In this document: positions 41,893 to 50,531 of the stretch, piece by piece
Layout of the letters: the number at the start of each line of letters is the position of its first letter
Position numbering within the stretch: the first letter of the stretch is position 1
Assembly: GCA_021790675.1 (NCBI GenBank)
Contig: JAJYGN010000012.1
Coordinates: 1-64,000, forward strand
Direction: 5' to 3'
DNA: 64,000 bases
Source of the DNA: Actinomycetes bacterium
Lineage (GTDB): Bacteria; Actinomycetota; Acidimicrobiia; Acidimicrobiales; RAAP-2
The notes under the pieces: generated by a model
Told to the model about the DNA's origin: nothing
Database searches by the model: none
Seen by the model: the letters and a program-made list of their open reading frames with translations, nothing else
Program-made: the position numbers and the translations under genes

Positions 41893-42819
41893 TCACTCTG
41901 TGGTCTCGAGGTTGGTCATCGCCGCCTGTCGGGCCAGCACGTCGGGATGGACACGAATCGCGCGGTGAATCAGGCGGTCGAAGACGTCCGACATCGAACC
42001 CTCCTGAGCGATACCACGACGGATCACCATGCCGAGAACCGGGACTGCCCAAAAGTCACCGCAGACCCACAGAATCGCCGCGCCGATCTGCTGGTCAGCG
42101 AAGGGTGACAAGGTGACACCGGGAATGTGGGCGTAGCTCGGGTACCAGCTCGTCGCCGAGAAGATGCTCATCGCCATCGCCATCAGCGTCATGACGACGT
42201 TCGTGCCCAGGATCGCGCCGGACTGCCAGATCGCGCCCTTGGTGGTCTTGACCGGAGCAGACGGCAGGATCTGCAGCCAGAACAGCACTCCGGTGACGAG
42301 GAAGCTGCCGTGCATGAGCCACACGTGAACGAAGCCGTTGGACTCGGAGAGCTCAAACCACTTCGGTAGGTGCCAGAAGATCATCACCGCGTTGAACGAG
42401 ATCAGGGCCACCCAGGGATTTCGTAGCGCGCGTCCGATGCCGCGTAGCCACTTCGCTCCACCGCTCAGGTAGATGAAGCGGCCCACGCGGCGTCGCGCGC
42501 CGACGGGCAGGAAGAACATGAGTGGCAGCCATGGCGCGCCGAGGACGACCATCATCGGTGTGGCGAAGGACAAGATCACGTGCTCGATCATGTGGATGTA
42601 GAAGTAGCTCGACGCCCAGTAGTCGGTCGGCGACATCACCGACAGCACCAGGAGGGCCAGTCCCCCGTAGAACACGTAGGACTTACGTCGTCGCCGGCGG
42701 GTGCGCTCGGGGCGCGAGTGCGCGGCCAGACGTCGCAGTCCCACCTCGTGGGCGAAAATAGTGAAGGCCACGACGAAGATCATCGGGTCGAAGGTCCAGT
42801 GCTCGAGGAACAGGTTCAC
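41893..42819 (-). CDS. Caa3-type oxidase assembly factor CtaG-like membrane protein
   Basis: Polytopic, HMIEHVILSFATPMMVVLGAP, FADQQIGAAILW; GTG start at 42819 overlaps upstream stop. Confidence 0.82.
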   Translation of the reverse strand: MNLFLEHWTFDPMIFVVAFTIFAHEVGLRRLAAHSRPERTRRRRRKSYVFYGGLALLVLSVMSPTDYWASSYFYIHMIEHVILSFATPMMVVLGAPWLPLMFFLPVGARRRVGRFIYLSGGAKWLRGIGRALRNPWVALISFNAVMIFWHLPKWFELSESNGFVHVWLMHGSFLVTGVLFWLQILPSAPVKTTKGAIWQSGAILGTNVVMTLMAMAMSIFSATSWYPSYAHIPGVTLSPFADQQIGAAILWVCGDFWAVPVLGMVIRRGIAQEGSMSDVFDRLIHRAIRVHPDVLARQAAMTNLETTE

Positions 42820-43175
42820 TGGCTGATCCCGTCTTCGCGCTGGCGCTGGGCGGCCAACTCGCTCTGGTGCTGCTCCCAAGCGGCGAGCATGCCCGAGTAC
42901 TCGGGGGCGAGCTCAGCTCTGGGCTTCTTTGGTGGGCGTCCCTCCGCGTCAGGGTGCAGCACCTTCCACCACATGTACACGGCGAATCCACCCAGCAACG
43001 GCCACTCGAAGACGTAGGCCCAACTGAGCGTGTTTCCCCCCAGGGCCCGTCCCACCTCGAACCAGAAGGCGGCCGCGCACACGAGGAGTCCCGCCGCCAA
43101 AGTCAGGTGCGTCTTGACCGCCGCGGCGCCCCGAAGGCGCGTCCGGGTTGGGTTCGCCGTCTTCTCACCCTCCAC
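42816..43175 (-). CDS. Small two-TM membrane protein, 'GNxLSWAYVFEWP' family (copy 1)
   Basis: RALGGNTLSWAYVFEWPLLGGFAVYMWWKVLHP; paralog of 50217-50531. Confidence 0.7.
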   Translation of the reverse strand: MEGEKTANPTRTRLRGAAAVKTHLTLAAGLLVCAAAFWFEVGRALGGNTLSWAYVFEWPLLGGFAVYMWWKVLHPDAEGRPPKKPRAELAPEYSGMLAAWEQHQSELAAQRQREDGISQ

Positions 43176-43258
43176 GAGTTCACCCTACCGGCTCTCCGCT
43201 GCGCAGACCCTGTCATTTAGGGTCATCGAGGCCCCTTCTCGGTAGAGTTGACGTACCC

Positions 43259-44095
43259 GTGAGCGACGACACCAACCAAGAAGCCAGCCCGCAGGGCACC
43301 CTCAGCGAGGCCGATCGCGCCCGCGCCTTCGCCACCAGCCAGTCGACCGGTCGGGCCTCCCTGCCGCCAACGTTCTTCAAGTGGGCGGTGGCGGTATTCG
43401 TGGTTCTCGGCGGCGGCGGCGCCCTGCTCGAACGGGTGATGAGTGGTGCGACGCCAACGACCAGTCCGACGACCCTGCCCGCGCCGTCTCTGACCGCACC
43501 GGTCGCCCAGAATCCCCTCACTTCGAGCCTGTCGGCTCTGCTCGGACTCAAGAGCCTCGGCCCCACACCGGCGCCAGCGCTCGAACTCACCGACCAAAAT
43601 GGTGCGCCCTGGCGCCTGGGCGACCAGCGGGGTCACGTCGTGCTCGTGACCTTCTATGACGCGTCGTGCCACGACATCTGCCCGGTGCTCGGAGCCGAGA
43701 TTCGCGGCGCCCTCGCCGATCTAGGGACGTCGTCGGGCGCGGTGCGCGTCGCGATCGTCAACACCGATCCGCGGGCGACGACCGCGACCAAAAACGTGGC
43801 GGCCCTCAGCGTGCCAGGGCTCTCGGATCGTTCCAACGTCTGGTTCCTCACCGGCAGCCTGAACCAGCTCAACGACGTGTGGAGCAGTTACGGCGTGACG
43901 ATCAACGTGGGCGCGAAGGCCTCGCAGATCGCGCACAACAACGTTCTCTACTTCATCGATCCGCGCGGACGACTCCGCTCGCTTGCGGTCCCCTTTGCCA
44001 ACGAGGACCGCTCCGGCGCGTACTCTCTCAGCGCCGCCGAGGTCGCCCGATTCGCGAAGGGTCTGGCCAACGTGGCCGGTAGTCTGATCCGGTGA
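43259..44095 (+). CDS. SCO1/SenC-type copper chaperone
   Basis: FYDASCHDICPVLGAEI (CxxxCP) and conserved His in IAHNNVLYFIDP; N-terminal TM. Confidence 0.88.
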   Translation: MSDDTNQEASPQGTLSEADRARAFATSQSTGRASLPPTFFKWAVAVFVVLGGGGALLERVMSGATPTTSPTTLPAPSLTAPVAQNPLTSSLSALLGLKSLGPTPAPALELTDQNGAPWRLGDQRGHVVLVTFYDASCHDICPVLGAEIRGALADLGTSSGAVRVAIVNTDPRATTATKNVAALSVPGLSDRSNVWFLTGSLNQLNDVWSSYGVTINVGAKASQIAHNNVLYFIDPRGRLRSLAVPFANEDRSGAYSLSAAEVARFAKGLANVAGSLIR

Positions 44096-44754
44096 CGGAC
44101 CCGGTGGACAGCGGCAACTTCGATCCCGGAGCGATGCCGGCGGCATCACTCTCTTCGGCCAAGGCCGTGTGGTACCGACGGCCGTGGGTCATGGTGTTGA
44201 TCGTGGTGGTCATCGTCGTAGGCGTCTCGGTAGTCACCGATCTTCCCCACCACATCACCGTCAGTGAGGACGCCTCAGCCCAGAACGCCTCGATCAAGCA
44301 GATCAACCTCGACCTGGCACCGTGCAACTACGCGATATCCGAGATCTACCACTACTACGAGACCAAGATCGTTGGTACCGCTCCTCCGATGCGGCCCCAG
44401 AAGTACCCCAAGTGGATGACCGACGACCAGTCCGTCTGCTCTTTCACGAGTGGCGAGATCTATGACCTGACCAACAACTTCCAGGCCCTCGACACCAAAG
44501 CCGGCAAGCACATCGACAACATGCACACGATCGTCGTGACCTGGATCACGTCCGACGCGCTTGGAGCGATCAACGACATCATGTATCTCTACAACCACCC
44601 TGGCGACGCCACGAAGATCGCCTCACTGCGCCGGCGAACGGCGCTGCTCAACCTCGAGCACGCCCAGGCGATGGCTGAGTGGTCAAAGGCCAACGCATTG
44701 CTCGGTGGTCGTCTCTACCCGCTCAAGCTCGTCCAGTTGCCCGCGGTTGCATAG
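44092..44754 (+). CDS. Hypothetical membrane-anchored exported protein coupled to SCO1
   Basis: GTG start overlaps SCO1 stop (GTGA); one TM plus extracytoplasmic domain; no family recognised. Confidence 0.7.
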   Translation: MTDPVDSGNFDPGAMPAASLSSAKAVWYRRPWVMVLIVVVIVVGVSVVTDLPHHITVSEDASAQNASIKQINLDLAPCNYAISEIYHYYETKIVGTAPPMRPQKYPKWMTDDQSVCSFTSGEIYDLTNNFQALDTKAGKHIDNMHTIVVTWITSDALGAINDIMYLYNHPGDATKIASLRRRTALLNLEHAQAMAEWSKANALLGGRLYPLKLVQLPAVA

Positions 44755-44760
44755 CGGCGA

Positions 44761-45579
44761 CTAGGCCGACGCGTCGAAGGTCCCTCGGCTGCGCTGCTCG
44801 CGCACGAGCCTCGTGAGCTCCTCGTTGGGATCCTCCTCGGACTGCAGCCAGTGGATGAGGTTCCAAAAGACCACCGGCATGAACGTCGCGGCCGACAGCA
44901 GCCACATCGAGCCGGCGGCCAGTTGCTGATCGGCGAAGAGCGACAGTCCGTGACCGGGCACGTGCGCAAATGCCCCGTACCACGAGACCTGGGACATGCC
45001 GTTGAGGTAGGCGATGATCCACACCGTCCACATCACAACCGCGGCGACGCCGATGCGAAAGGGCCGCGTGGTCGACGCGCTGACCGGCGGCGACTCCACG
45101 ATCGTCAGCCAGAGCCACACCCCGCTCGCCACCAGGCTCAGAGACTCGACGACGACGAGCCACCCGTGGTGCACGAGGGCGTTGACCACCGGCGCCGTGC
45201 GCCAGCCAATGATGAGGGCGAGGTACAACAAGCCCACAGTGAAGACGTGCACGTGTCCGCTGCGACGTCTAGCGCGCATCGCCATGCGGTCCATGGCGCG
45301 CGGCGCCGTGGGTGAGACAATGGCGCCGTCGTCACCAACGCGAAAGGGCTCGCCCGAGGCGAGCCCTACACGCTTCCACGGTGCACCGGTCACCAACAGT
45401 GCCGGCACCACCATGGCGATCAAACCGAACTGCACCGCCTGGGCGAACTCGTAGTGCCGGGCCCACGACGCCAGGGGCGACACCACGGCAACCAGCCACA
45501 CGGCAACGCCGAGAACGGCGAGCACGTCGCGGAGCCTCTCGACCCCGTCAGCCGTACGGAGATTCTCGCGCCGCGTCAC
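44761..45579 (-). CDS. Second CtaG-like membrane protein
   Basis: Polytopic; LSLFADQQLAAGSMWLLSA parallels FADQQIGAAILW of the first copy; likely GTG start at 45579. Confidence 0.78.
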   Translation of the reverse strand: MTRRENLRTADGVERLRDVLAVLGVAVWLVAVVSPLASWARHYEFAQAVQFGLIAMVVPALLVTGAPWKRVGLASGEPFRVGDDGAIVSPTAPRAMDRMAMRARRRSGHVHVFTVGLLYLALIIGWRTAPVVNALVHHGWLVVVESLSLVASGVWLWLTIVESPPVSASTTRPFRIGVAAVVMWTVWIIAYLNGMSQVSWYGAFAHVPGHGLSLFADQQLAAGSMWLLSAATFMPVVFWNLIHWLQSEEDPNEELTRLVREQRSRGTFDASA

Positions 45580-45689
45580 TTCGAGGGGCGACGCTGGAAG
45601 AATCCCCAAATAATGACGCCGAACAGCACGCCCAGCAGAACCACCATTGTCTGGACCTGTGCGCCGATGTACCCGTCTGCACCTAGCAT
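45576..45689 (-). CDS. 37-aa single-TM small protein in cox operon (absent from ORF track)
   Basis: MLGADGYIGAQVQTMVVLLGVLFGVIIWGFFQRRPSK; upstream TGAGGT SD-like site; GTGA overlap with next gene. Confidence 0.7.
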   Translation of the reverse strand: MLGADGYIGAQVQTMVVLLGVLFGVIIWGFFQRRPSK

Positions 45690-45762
45690 TTTGACCTCAT
45701 TCTCGTTTCACACACCTTTGGCTTACACCTTCTGACCGCGACCATCAGGTCGTCCGTCCCGC

Positions 45763-46416
45763 CTACATCAGGTAGAACAGCACCAAGAACAGCGTCGCGC
45801 CGAGGGCGATAAAGCCCCAGTTGTACGTCATGGAGGCGACGTTGGCTCTGAACGACTGCGCCGAGGGACTCGAAGAGAGCTCCGCGCCCTCGCCCAGCTC
45901 GCGACGCAAGCGCAAGCTGCGTGCCAGGGTCGTCTCCAGCCAATAGGTTCCCACCGCGATCGTTCCGATGTTCATCACGGCGTAACCGATGAAGGTCGAT
46001 GCGTAGCCGCTCGAGCCCGGGTAGAAGGGCACGCGCGTGAACTCCCAGATCTGCAAGAACAGCGCGATCAGACCAGAGGCCACGCCCGTCCAGCCCGCGA
46101 CCTGCCAATCGGCGATCTCACCCTTGCGCAGGCGCCACTGCCCGTAGATCGCGAGAATCGCGGTCAGGACCATGAAGCCGTAGATGAAGAAGCCGTAGTA
46201 CGTCGGCGCCGTGATGTGATTCGGACGCCAGAGCTCGGCGTTGTTGCTCGAACGCAGGTAGAAGTACGCGAAGGCGAGCGACGCCAGCATGAACGTGTAC
46301 ATGCCGATGAACAGTCGACCCCCCGTCCATATCGCGCCGAGGTGCGAGCGTAATTCGAACTCGCGCTCCTCCGGCGTCGCCAGCGCGTACTTGGATCCCT
46401 TGAAGGTGTCAGTCAT
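45763..46416 (-). CDS. coxC: Cytochrome c oxidase subunit III
   Basis: Polytopic; GRLFIGMYTFMLASLAFAYFYLRS; directly after coxA; start at 46416. Confidence 0.88.
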   Translation of the reverse strand: MTDTFKGSKYALATPEEREFELRSHLGAIWTGGRLFIGMYTFMLASLAFAYFYLRSSNNAELWRPNHITAPTYYGFFIYGFMVLTAILAIYGQWRLRKGEIADWQVAGWTGVASGLIALFLQIWEFTRVPFYPGSSGYASTFIGYAVMNIGTIAVGTYWLETTLARSLRLRRELGEGAELSSSPSAQSFRANVASMTYNWGFIALGATLFLVLFYLM

Positions 46417-46429
46417 TTTCCTCTCCCTG

Positions 46430-48388
46430 CTACGCCGGGTTGCTGGTGGACGAAGTGTCGCTGGCGACCGGAGCCGGGCCACCGAAGTCGGCTAGAGCCG
46501 GAGCGTTGACTTCGCTGTAGTGGTACGGGTCGGTCATGATCACGGGGATGCGATCGAAGTTGTGCGCCGGCACGGGGGTCGCGGTCTGCCACTCGAGGCC
46601 GAGCGACTCCCACGGATTGGCCGGTGCCTTCTGCGGGCTGATCCACATCGAGTAGACGAGGTTCCAGGCGAAGACGATGAAGGAAATTCCCAATAGGAAC
46701 GCACTGATCGACGAGAAGTCGTTCAGACCCTGCAGGTTGCTCGCGTAGGTGAAGACTCGACGCGGCTGGCCCAACAAGCCGATGATGAACATCGGGAAGA
46801 AGGTCAGGTTAAAGAAGACGAACATCATCCAGAAGTGGACGAGGCCGATCTTCTTGTTCATCATCATTCCCGTCATCTTCGGCAGCCAGTAGTACAGACC
46901 GGCCATGAAGGCGAAGAGCAGACCACCCATGATCGTGTAGTGGAAGTGCGAGAGGACGAAGAACCCTCCGTGCACCGTCACGTTGACCGGCACGTCCGAC
47001 AAGAACACGCCCGTGACGCCACCGATTAGGAAGTTGAAGAACAGGGCCATCGCGAACAGCATGGGTATCTCAAAGCGGATCTTCGCTCGATAGAGAGTTC
47101 CCATGCCGACCAGGAAGATGAATCCGGTCGGAATCGAGATGAGCTCGGTCGTCAGCATGAACAGTGGCCGCATGTCGGGGTTGATACCGCTCTGGAAGAG
47201 GTGGTGCTGCCACACGAAGAACGACAGCAGGGCCACACCGATCATTCCCGAGGCCGCTACCTTGTAGGCGAAGAGCGGCTTACGAGTGAAAACCGGCAGG
47301 ATCTCGGCGACGATGCCGAATCCGGGCAGCGCCATGATGTACACCTCGGGGTGGCCAAAGAACCAGAACAGGTTCTGCCACAGGTACGAGCTGCCGCCGT
47401 GCTCGTCGACGTAGAAGGCAGTCTGGACTGTCTTGTCGAGAATTCCGAAGAGTCCCGCGGAGAACAGCACCGGCGTGGCCAGGGTGAGCAGTGACGCCGT
47501 GGCCAGGATCGACCACACGAAGATCGGCACACGGCTCCAGGTCATTCCCGGGGCGCGGTAGTTGATGATCGAGACCGCGATGTTAAAGCCCGCGGCCATC
47601 ATTCCCAAACCGATGACCGCGAACCCGAAGAGGTAGGAGATCATGCCGGGGCCGTTCTGGGTTTGCAGCGGGGCGTAGCCCGTCCACCCGGTGTTGAAAC
47701 CGCCGTAGGGCAGAGCCGAGAAGATGACCATGTAGCCGGCCATGAAGATCCAGAAGCTGAACGCCTCGATGCGCGGGAACGCCATCTGGCGCGATCCGAT
47801 CATCAAGGGGACCAAGTAGTTACCCAACGGACCCACGATGATCGACGTCGCCATCATCATCATGATCGTGCCGTGCTCGGAGACAATCTCAATGTAAGTT
47901 CCGGGACCGAACACGTGGGTCGTCGGGTTCAGCAGCTCGGTGCGAATTGCCATGGCGAGCAGTCCACCGGTGAACATGAAGAGGATCACACCGACCACGT
48001 ACTGCAAACCGACCACTTTGTGGTTGGTGCTGTAGCGGAAGTACTTGCTCCACCCCTCGACTTCAACTTCTGCCGGCGGCTCCTTGCCGACGATCTTGGC
48101 CAACGGGTAGTTCAGCGCCCCGATGCCCACCAGCCAGCCCAGCACCATGCCGAGCAGCGCGAGGGTGACGGCAATGGGGTTCTGGCCGCTGTTGGCGATC
48201 CACGGGTAACTGCTCGATATGTAGTTACCGAACCAGTGGCCCAAGATGTAGCCCAGGAATCCCCCCACGATCGCCGTGCCCAGGTGCTGGCTCATCCAGC
48301 CGGGGCGCTGCGTCCAGGGGATTCCGGACGCGGTAGGTGGAGTCGCGCTGGACGCCACTGCTGTCGGTCGTTCGGCGCTAATTGTCAT
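46430..48388 (-). CDS. coxA: Heme-copper oxidase subunit I (noncanonical proton channels)
   Basis: EHGTIMMMM, FWFFGHPEVYIMALPGFGIV, WQHHLF, SHFHYTIMGG. Confidence 0.96.
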   Translation of the reverse strand: MTISAERPTAVASSATPPTASGIPWTQRPGWMSQHLGTAIVGGFLGYILGHWFGNYISSSYPWIANSGQNPIAVTLALLGMVLGWLVGIGALNYPLAKIVGKEPPAEVEVEGWSKYFRYSTNHKVVGLQYVVGVILFMFTGGLLAMAIRTELLNPTTHVFGPGTYIEIVSEHGTIMMMMATSIIVGPLGNYLVPLMIGSRQMAFPRIEAFSFWIFMAGYMVIFSALPYGGFNTGWTGYAPLQTQNGPGMISYLFGFAVIGLGMMAAGFNIAVSIINYRAPGMTWSRVPIFVWSILATASLLTLATPVLFSAGLFGILDKTVQTAFYVDEHGGSSYLWQNLFWFFGHPEVYIMALPGFGIVAEILPVFTRKPLFAYKVAASGMIGVALLSFFVWQHHLFQSGINPDMRPLFMLTTELISIPTGFIFLVGMGTLYRAKIRFEIPMLFAMALFFNFLIGGVTGVFLSDVPVNVTVHGGFFVLSHFHYTIMGGLLFAFMAGLYYWLPKMTGMMMNKKIGLVHFWMMFVFFNLTFFPMFIIGLLGQPRRVFTYASNLQGLNDFSSISAFLLGISFIVFAWNLVYSMWISPQKAPANPWESLGLEWQTATPVPAHNFDRIPVIMTDPYHYSEVNAPALADFGGPAPVASDTSSTSNPA

Positions 48389-48455: not shown

Positions 48456-49448
48456 TCACGACGCCGGCTGCTTGGCCCCGTAAGTCTCTACGGTGCTGTA
48501 GGGAGTGACAGTGCCATCGGGGTAGTAACCGCCGGCAGCTCCGTTGGCGTCCGGCGTGTAGGTCCACGCGAAGGGCGGCAGGTTCTTGGTGTTGGCCGCG
48601 TTGGCGGCCTCGGTGCTCGTCGCCCACTGCGTGAAGGCCGAAGGAGACACGACCGACCCGTAATTGAACATCGCCCCGTGCCAGAGCCCGCAGAGCTCCG
48701 AACAGCGTACGGTGAAGTTGCCCGTTCCCTTGGTCTCGGTGAAAGCCACGTTGTTCACGCCGGGATTCGCATCAGCCTTGACGCTCAACTGGTAGGCCCA
48801 GAAGCTGTGGATCACGTCAAGTGAGGTCACGTTGAAAGCGATCGTCGTGTTCGCCGGCAGTACCAGTTGCGAGGTCTCAAAGCCCCCAAAGGTCGGATAG
48901 CGGTAGGTGAACTTCCACTGCTGACCGATGACCTGGACGGGCAGCACCTTCTCGCCACCCGGCTCACTCAAGATGCCCGTACCGGTTCCGTTAAGAGCGG
49001 CTGTTTCAGCTTGCGCGGCGCCGGCCGGCATCCACACCGGATTCGGGCCCTCGCCTCCGCCCGAGCCGTGATCCACGATCAGCGCCCAGGTGCCAAATGC
49101 CGCAAGGAAGAGCACCACAAAGCTCGTGATCGAGATCCACAGCACCTGAGCTTTGCGGTTCGAGCGAGCGGCCGCACCGCCCACCGACTCGGGGCCGTTT
49201 CGCTTGGCGCTCCAGTGGGTGATCGAGTAGCCCATGTAGACCCAGACGCCGATTAACACGGGCAGGGCGATGACCATGAGGATGTTGAAGTCCATCTGGT
49301 TGTTCTTGGCCGTCTCGGTCAGGCGTCCCGGCGGCACGTGCGGGCCGACGAGGAACCAGAAGAGCAGGTCGGCGGCAACTGAAAGTACAACCCAGATGCC
49401 GGACATCTTGCGCAGGTCGCGCGGGCTGTTAGAAGAGGTGTTCGCCAT
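48456..49448 (-). CDS. coxB: Cytochrome c oxidase subunit II (complete CuA site)
   Basis: RCSELCGLWHGAMF CuA motif, IHSFWAYQLSVKADANPG; start at 49448. Confidence 0.94.
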   Translation of the reverse strand: MANTSSNSPRDLRKMSGIWVVLSVAADLLFWFLVGPHVPPGRLTETAKNNQMDFNILMVIALPVLIGVWVYMGYSITHWSAKRNGPESVGGAAARSNRKAQVLWISITSFVVLFLAAFGTWALIVDHGSGGGEGPNPVWMPAGAAQAETAALNGTGTGILSEPGGEKVLPVQVIGQQWKFTYRYPTFGGFETSQLVLPANTTIAFNVTSLDVIHSFWAYQLSVKADANPGVNNVAFTETKGTGNFTVRCSELCGLWHGAMFNYGSVVSPSAFTQWATSTEAANAANTKNLPPFAWTYTPDANGAAGGYYPDGTVTPYSTVETYGAKQPAS

Positions 49449-49450
49449 GA

Positions 49451-50134
49451 TTAACGCACCACGTCCAAGAAGCCACCCATGTAATTCTGCGCTGACATTC
49501 CGCCTCCGTTTCCGTACAGGTACCCAAGGCCACACGGAACGAAGCACTGCCAGTTGTAGTTACCGGGTCCCGGGGTCTTGAAACTGAACGTGATCGTGTT
49601 GTGTGGCCACTTCGACGTCAGGCAGGGGCCCGCGCCGCAGATGTTGTTGCCCGCTACCCCCGGCAGCGGGACGACAATGCCCAGCGCCGGTACCGCGAAG
49701 GTGTGGCCGACCCCGGCACCCGAGTAGGAATCGAAGGCCGTATAAGTAGTCCCGTTGAGAGAGGCCGAGCCCCCGGTCGTTCCCTCGACCTGGCCCCACT
49801 GCTGGTTGCGCAGAGGGCTCCCCGAGTCGAACTGTTCGATGGTCATGTTGACCACGGTGTTCGCTGGCAACTTCCAAGTGTTGTCCTGGACCCACTGACC
49901 CGTGTGCGGGTCCTTGGTCAGATAAGACACCCACGAAGGGTGCGGACCGAAGCCAATGGCCCCGACGGTCTCGACCGTAAGATTGACAGGTTGTCCTGCA
50001 GACTGGGTATTCGTGAAGTTCATTTCCCCGCCTGGCGTGCCGGGGGTGAGGTAGACGGCAACCGCCCACACCACGAGTCCGACTACGACCAAGAAGAGTC
50101 CGAGACTTATCGCCAGTCTCCCTCCCTTTGACAT
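49451..50134 (-). CDS. Membrane-anchored subunit II-like cupredoxin with degenerate CuA motif
   Basis: N-terminal TM; GVGHTFAVPALGIVVPLPG and NYNWQCFVPCGLGYLYGNGGGM...MGGFLDVV. Confidence 0.72.
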   Translation of the reverse strand: MSKGGRLAISLGLFLVVVGLVVWAVAVYLTPGTPGGEMNFTNTQSAGQPVNLTVETVGAIGFGPHPSWVSYLTKDPHTGQWVQDNTWKLPANTVVNMTIEQFDSGSPLRNQQWGQVEGTTGGSASLNGTTYTAFDSYSGAGVGHTFAVPALGIVVPLPGVAGNNICGAGPCLTSKWPHNTITFSFKTPGPGNYNWQCFVPCGLGYLYGNGGGMSAQNYMGGFLDVVR

Positions 50135-50216
50135 ACACCACTCCTCGCGACGACGCGTTTCTTGTGAAACTCGAAAGGAACAGTAATGGATCGTGACGAT
50201 ATTGTGTGGATTCGTG

Positions 50217-50531
50217 ATGGCCTTGACTAAGAGAATTCTTGGTATCTATGGGGGCCTCTTAGCCGCCGAAGCCATCTGCGTCTCGGCCTTCGCGATCGAG
50301 ATCCACCGCGCGCTCTCGGGTAACTCGCTCTCGTGGGCCTACGTCTTCGAGTGGCCTATCTTCGCCGGTTACGCGGTGTATTTGGCGCGAAAACTTATAC
50401 GCGAAGTGCGTTTCGGACCCCGGCCATCTGCGTCCGCGACCCCCGAAGACTCCGACGCGCGCCTCGCCGAGTACAACGAATATCTTCGGAAAATGCACGA
50501 TGATGACAACAGCGATCGAGGTGATTCCTAG
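50217..50531 (+). CDS. Small two-TM membrane protein, 'GNxLSWAYVFEWP' family (copy 2)
   Basis: RALSGNSLSWAYVFEWPIFAGYAVYLARKLI; paralog of 42816-43175. Confidence 0.7.
   Translation: MALTKRILGIYGGLLAAEAICVSAFAIEIHRALSGNSLSWAYVFEWPIFAGYAVYLARKLIREVRFGPRPSASATPEDSDARLAEYNEYLRKMHDDDNSDRGDS

Follow-up and report, generated by a model that had tools for sequence, protein, structure and literature searches.

Very small oxidase subunits often escape annotation (PMC3128077, PMC10433244). CcoM, a 36-aa subunit of the Pseudomonas stutzeri cbb3 oxidase, was long overlooked (PMC10433244), and subunit IIa/CbaD of the ba3 oxidases, which measures 34 to 71 aa in bacteria, was repeatedly missed by annotation and found via its operon (PMC3128077). 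Family A oxidases most often possess a small fourth polypeptide (PMC9145763), and the CtaF protein of Mycobacterium smegmatis constitutes the equivalent of helices 1 and 2 of subunit III (PMC8361435). Here, we describe a 37-aa open reading frame (ORF37; positions 45576 to 45689, minus strand) in an oxidase operon of an Acidimicrobiales bacterium; "the window" denotes the whole stretch of 64,000 nucleotides that was analyzed. We assign a probability of about 0.72 to the reading that ORF37 is a genuine gene for a single-helix structural accessory subunit of a second, divergent A-family cytochrome c oxidase. With CcoM, which is a one-helix protein, ORF37 shares the tiny size and the accessory role proposed here, but CcoM serves a C-family oxidase of a gammaproteobacterium, and the PDB profile search gave no sequence match. 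Subunit IIa/CbaD is likewise a tiny one-helix oxidase subunit; however, it provides a helix that its one-helix subunit II lacks, and its gene lies upstream of that for subunit II, whereas ORF37 follows coxC. The conserved glycine-tryptophan spacing runs from G14 to W30 in IIa and from G20 to W28 in ORF37. A subunit IIa identity for ORF37 was rejected, since CoxB of this operon has three hydrophobic segments of its own and ORF37 lies after coxC. CcoQ/FixQ (PF05545) is another small one-helix protein of oxidase operons, and its short aromatic-then-basic motif after the helix resembles that of ORF37; it goes with cbb3 (C-family) oxidases, whereas the operon studied here comprises coxA, a coxB bearing a CuA motif, and a coxC whose predicted product has the fold of subunit III. 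CtaF (PF12270) and the alphaproteobacterial subunit IV are comparable in that their genes follow the core subunit genes and in the proposed place beside subunit III, but CtaF is far longer (132 positions in the PF12270 model) and serves the canonical oxidase, while ORF37, with its single helix, gave a match to neither family. In size (about 37 aa), helix number (one) and location of the gene at the oxidase operon's end, ORF37 agrees with the CydX-type subunits of cytochrome bd, but these belong to an unrelated oxidase.

ORF37 starts with an ATG at position 45689, 73 nt downstream of coxC, and terminates with a TGA at positions 45578 to 45576, its end running into the Caa3_CtaG gene; the encoded protein is MLGADGYIGAQVQTMVVLLGVLFGVIIWGFFQRRPSK. 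A preliminary description of this DNA had placed a 37-aa minus-strand frame between coxC and a ctaG-like gene, and its coordinates and length proved exact. The Shine-Dalgarno-like GAGG that it mentioned is present (45695 to 45698, minus strand) but is separated from the ATG by 5 nt (GAGG-TCAAA-ATG) and not by 6 to 7 nt. The TGA shares the sequence GTGA (45576 to 45579, minus strand) with an in-frame GTG start of the ctaG-like gene, also as described. Predicted terminator-like sites were set aside, being located within coding sequence. ORFs of at least 30 aa that overlap the 12 kb around ORF37 amount to 143, and frames of 37 aa are frequent in the GC-rich DNA of the window, as would be expected if ORF37 were a chance ORF; therefore, the case for the gene rests on comparison. 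A search of the whole genome with ORF37 returned one match, namely, that in the oxidase operon.

Related loci were anchored on the CoxC protein of this operon and searched for in GTDB contigs, which yielded 80 loci, 79 of them readable after coxC. Judged by title, this set consists of MAGs labelled as Acidimicrobiales, Acidimicrobiaceae or unspecified Actinomycetes, a few of them probably in error, together with the isolate Acidithrix ferrooxidans. A homologous ORF of 36 to 41 aa, representing about 70 distinct proteins, was the next gene after coxC in 78 of the 79 loci, all within related Acidimicrobiales; these loci share kinship and thus do not count as 78 independent tests, but the codon model described below accounts for the tree. 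The family pattern is roughly xDxYIGxQVxTxxxPLGxxxxVxxWGFFQRxPS, with T14, F31 and R33 almost invariant. The 78 homologs start with ATG (54), GTG (22) or TTG (2), and in 77 of them the selected start is preceded by a stretch that matches the Shine-Dalgarno consensus over 4 nt or more, the choice of start having itself used the Shine-Dalgarno score. For 76 distinct sequences, the codon model gave an omega of 0.117 (lnL of -4519.7); with omega constrained to 1 and the tree unchanged, the lnL fell to -5042.8, a loss of 523 log units. Compared to a close relative (locus L014), ORF37 showed 10 synonymous and no nonsynonymous codon differences, and the identity was 91% within ORF37 versus 63% in the spacer ahead of it. 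These substitution patterns demonstrate that ORF37 codes for a protein and is subject to purifying selection, and both comparisons that the preliminary description had proposed (conservation at the same position in related oxidase loci and dN/dS across relatives) thus turned out in its favor. The conservation over 78 loci, across which the remaining forward frames are open in just 17 and 49 loci, makes a chance ORF hardly credible; the same holds for the possibility that ORF37 is a portion of a ctaG frame starting at 45609, since the ctaG frame is often a different one and starts past the ORF37 stop. The sole exception among the 79 loci, L085, has no ORF37 at the expected place and carries ctaG immediately after coxC; ORF37 may therefore not be strictly required, or it may be encoded elsewhere. 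At a further locus (L101 of genome G233, around positions 1390 to 1940), the homolog is prolonged at its C terminus by a long stretch of low complexity, within an open frame of 170 aa.

The neighboring ctaG-like gene (44761 to 45579, minus strand) encodes a putative copper assembly factor of the Caa3_CtaG family (PF09678, 82.8 bits), the start of which is, by comparison, the GTG at 45579 and not the TTG at 45609. The TGA of ORF37 can overlap an in-frame ctaG start by the same 4 nt in 53 of 77 loci (GTG in 40, ATG in 11 and TTG in 2), and in the other loci the distance and frame between the two genes vary. In many loci, the ctaG frame is unlike that of the window, and the first ctaG start lies beyond the ORF37 stop. 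Due to this variation, the TTG at 45609, which sits inside ORF37, does not represent a conserved ctaG start. The preliminary description would have been contradicted by an unconserved ORF37 frame alongside a conserved start at 45609; the reverse was found. In many species, the stop-start overlap probably links the translation of ORF37 with that of CtaG, the copper-insertion factor. The claimed coupling is common but dispensable, however, and the small gene is thus to be assigned to the oxidase and not to ctaG. Acidithrix (locus L090) kept ORF37 with no recognisable ctaG after it, and no obvious ctaG was seen downstream of ORF37 in loci L006 and L098, as judged by reading only. In two further genomes (G014, a closed genome of 2.16 Mb containing locus L007, and G269), ORF37 is found about 1 kb downstream of coxC, behind a gene that partial reading, rather than a family search, identified as ctaG-like. 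Retention of ORF37 without ctaG or in a changed gene order indicates that it follows the oxidase and not ctaG. It is also very improbable, for this reason, that ORF37 is a translational leader serving just to couple ctaG translation to coxC by means of an irrelevant peptide: the overlap in most loci is what such a leader would produce, but the codon pattern (omega of 0.117) strongly disfavors it, and the residues T14, F31 and R33, the WGFFQRR end and the topology are conserved.

Hydropathy revealed one hydrophobic segment in each member of the ORF37 family, which agrees with the membrane protein that had been proposed. Over the 78 proteins, the first 12 residues contain no Lys or Arg versus 136 in the last 9 residues; according to the positive-inside rule, this distribution means that the N terminus faces outward and the WGFFQRR end inward. 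The ORF37 product is thus, as predicted from its sequence, a membrane protein with one transmembrane helix and an N-out/C-in orientation. Sequence searches of the family against Pfam, NCBIfam and the PDB returned generic one-helix matches, all of them under the cut-offs, and the PDB profile search found no homology to any solved oxidase subunit. One such match was Phage_holin_10 (PF23987; E of 7.4e-4 and 19.9 bits for the window protein), which, together with weak Pfam matches to MaAIMP_sms/MetS, could point to a phage-type holin or a small transporter subunit. However, 19.9 bits compares with a curated cut-off of 27, only 4 of 39 family members match, and a generic single hydrophobic helix accounts for the match. 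The context is constantly an oxidase operon and not a phage, and a PHROGs search gave no named family above noise; we consider a holin or transporter function exceedingly unlikely. FixQ (PF05545) reached a best E of 0.035 with 2 of 39 members, short of the Pfam cut-off; a search for FixQ gave no match at an E of 0.001 in this genome and just two sub-threshold matches, both in long frames, in 199 genomes of the phylum. CtaF (PF12270) and a subunit IIa/CbaD family were both absent among the Pfam matches of the family up to an E of 10. The preliminary suggestion of a small oxidase subunit with a CcoQ- or subunit IV-like role, or of an assembly peptide, is supported with regard to the role, while the searches returned no homology to CcoQ/FixQ or subunit IV. 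The family likely constitutes a new family of small accessory oxidase subunits that is found in none of the searched libraries. With dozens of sequences and a clear motif, it is well delimited.

The operon has the gene order cupredoxin-coxB-coxA-coxC-ORF37-ctaG. The divergent coxC (45763 to 46416, minus strand) gave no match to the COX3 Pfam model, but its predicted fold is that of subunit III: the AlphaFold model (pLDDT of 89.9) has five helices, and the first 41 PDB matches were oxidase subunit III chains, in one instance a subunit I/III fusion of a caa3 oxidase (e.g., a TM score of 0.69 to 0.78 for chain 7qhm_F of the Corynebacterium glutamicum supercomplex). As this subunit III escapes the Pfam model, parts of the second oxidase may go unnoticed when respiration is surveyed in Acidimicrobiales. 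The coxA gene for subunit I (46430 to 48388, minus strand; PF00115, 418.5 bits) encodes a hydrophobic N-terminal extension by hydropathy (approximately residues 30 to 100, with at least one clear helix ahead of the first canonical helix) that is missing in the canonical CoxA of the same genome. The coxB gene for subunit II (48456 to 49448, minus strand; PF00116; likely start ATG 49448) contains the CuA motif CSELCGLWHGAM, and three helices are predicted by hydropathy. Wherever a locus extends far enough, coxB is adjoined by a gene for a membrane-anchored cupredoxin-like protein (49451 to 50134, minus strand), which matches no Pfam family and for which AlphaFold predicts a helix and a beta-sandwich. 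Its invariant CxxxC...M lies in the motif WQCFVPCGLGYLYGNGGxM, which resembles a CuA loop without its His. A PDB fold search gave no significant match, rusticyanin being among the weak ones; the cupredoxin identity is therefore tentative, and the protein could possibly serve as a second copper site or as the electron entry of the oxidase. A canonical aa3 oxidase is encoded in the same genome, with coxA on contig C5 and coxC on contig C90. CtaF was found just once in the genome, near this coxA on C5, and none is located near the second oxidase.

Co-inheritance with the second oxidase was followed with profiles. Of 296 genomes from the class, 11 were matched by the CoxC profile (E < 1e-40) and the same 11 by the ORF37 profile (E < 1e-3), other matches being weak; where a genome of the same genus had no such CoxC, ORF37 was missing as well. 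Across 397 genomes of the phylum, nothing convincing turned up outside this group. Co-occurrence is expected for linked genes, yet the rearranged cases argue for a functional link. ORF37 has been inherited together with this oxidase, and it also marks the second oxidase in Acidimicrobiales of acid environments. ORF37 shares with the class of small one-helix accessory subunits the conservation within the operon, the co-inheritance with the enzyme and, by hydropathy, the single helix.

As an accessory subunit, ORF37 would form one helix packed against CoxC and/or CoxA, its conserved WGFFQRR end would lie at the cytoplasmic face, and the protein would stabilize the complex. In addition, it may fill the place that CtaF (subunit IV, corresponding to helices 1 and 2 of subunit III) holds in the canonical oxidase: as CoxC has five helices and the locus lacks CtaF, this position could be taken by a peripheral helix such as ORF37 or by the CoxA extension. 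Oxidase operons also encode some assembly factors that are small membrane proteins with one helix, such as CcoS/FixS; the membership of ORF37 in the enzyme at a fixed stoichiometry is therefore putative. The sequence does not by itself decide between a subunit and an assembly factor, although a subunit is most likely. A transient CcoS/FixS-like peptide that works together with CtaG to insert copper or heme and is absent from the finished enzyme would explain why ORF37 adjoins ctaG and overlaps it in 53 of 77 loci, and a Sco gene is also located nearby. FixS/CcoS (PF03597) indeed appears among the sub-threshold Pfam matches for 4 of 39 members, but its best E of 0.11 is far under the cut-off, and in locus L090 the small gene accompanies the oxidase even though it is not followed by a recognisable ctaG. 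We regard such an assembly peptide as a serious but clearly less probable alternative to the accessory subunit. A more far-reaching version of the subunit reading is tentative and, on balance, doubtful: ORF37 would be a required, lineage-specific subunit of a distinct acidophile A-family oxidase from which CtaF was lost and in which CoxA acquired its extension, with a divergent five-helix CoxC, a built-in membrane-bound cupredoxin as electron entry and ORF37 as the replacement of a peripheral helix, and this enzyme could be the terminal oxidase of iron-oxidising or acid-tolerant Acidimicrobiales. The partner enzyme can be tested in cultured acidophiles, namely, Acidithrix ferrooxidans and probably Acidimicrobium ferrooxidans.

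Further genes accompany the oxidase cluster. Two paralogous small membrane proteins with 39% identity and the motif GNxLSWAYVFEWP are encoded on either side of it (42816 to 43175, minus strand, and 50193 to 50531, plus strand); the former matches no Pfam family, and the flanking proteins are kept in most related loci. A Sco-like gene and a gene for a membrane protein of an unknown family (43148 to 44754, plus strand) are convergent to the oxidase operon and are kept beside it in most loci.
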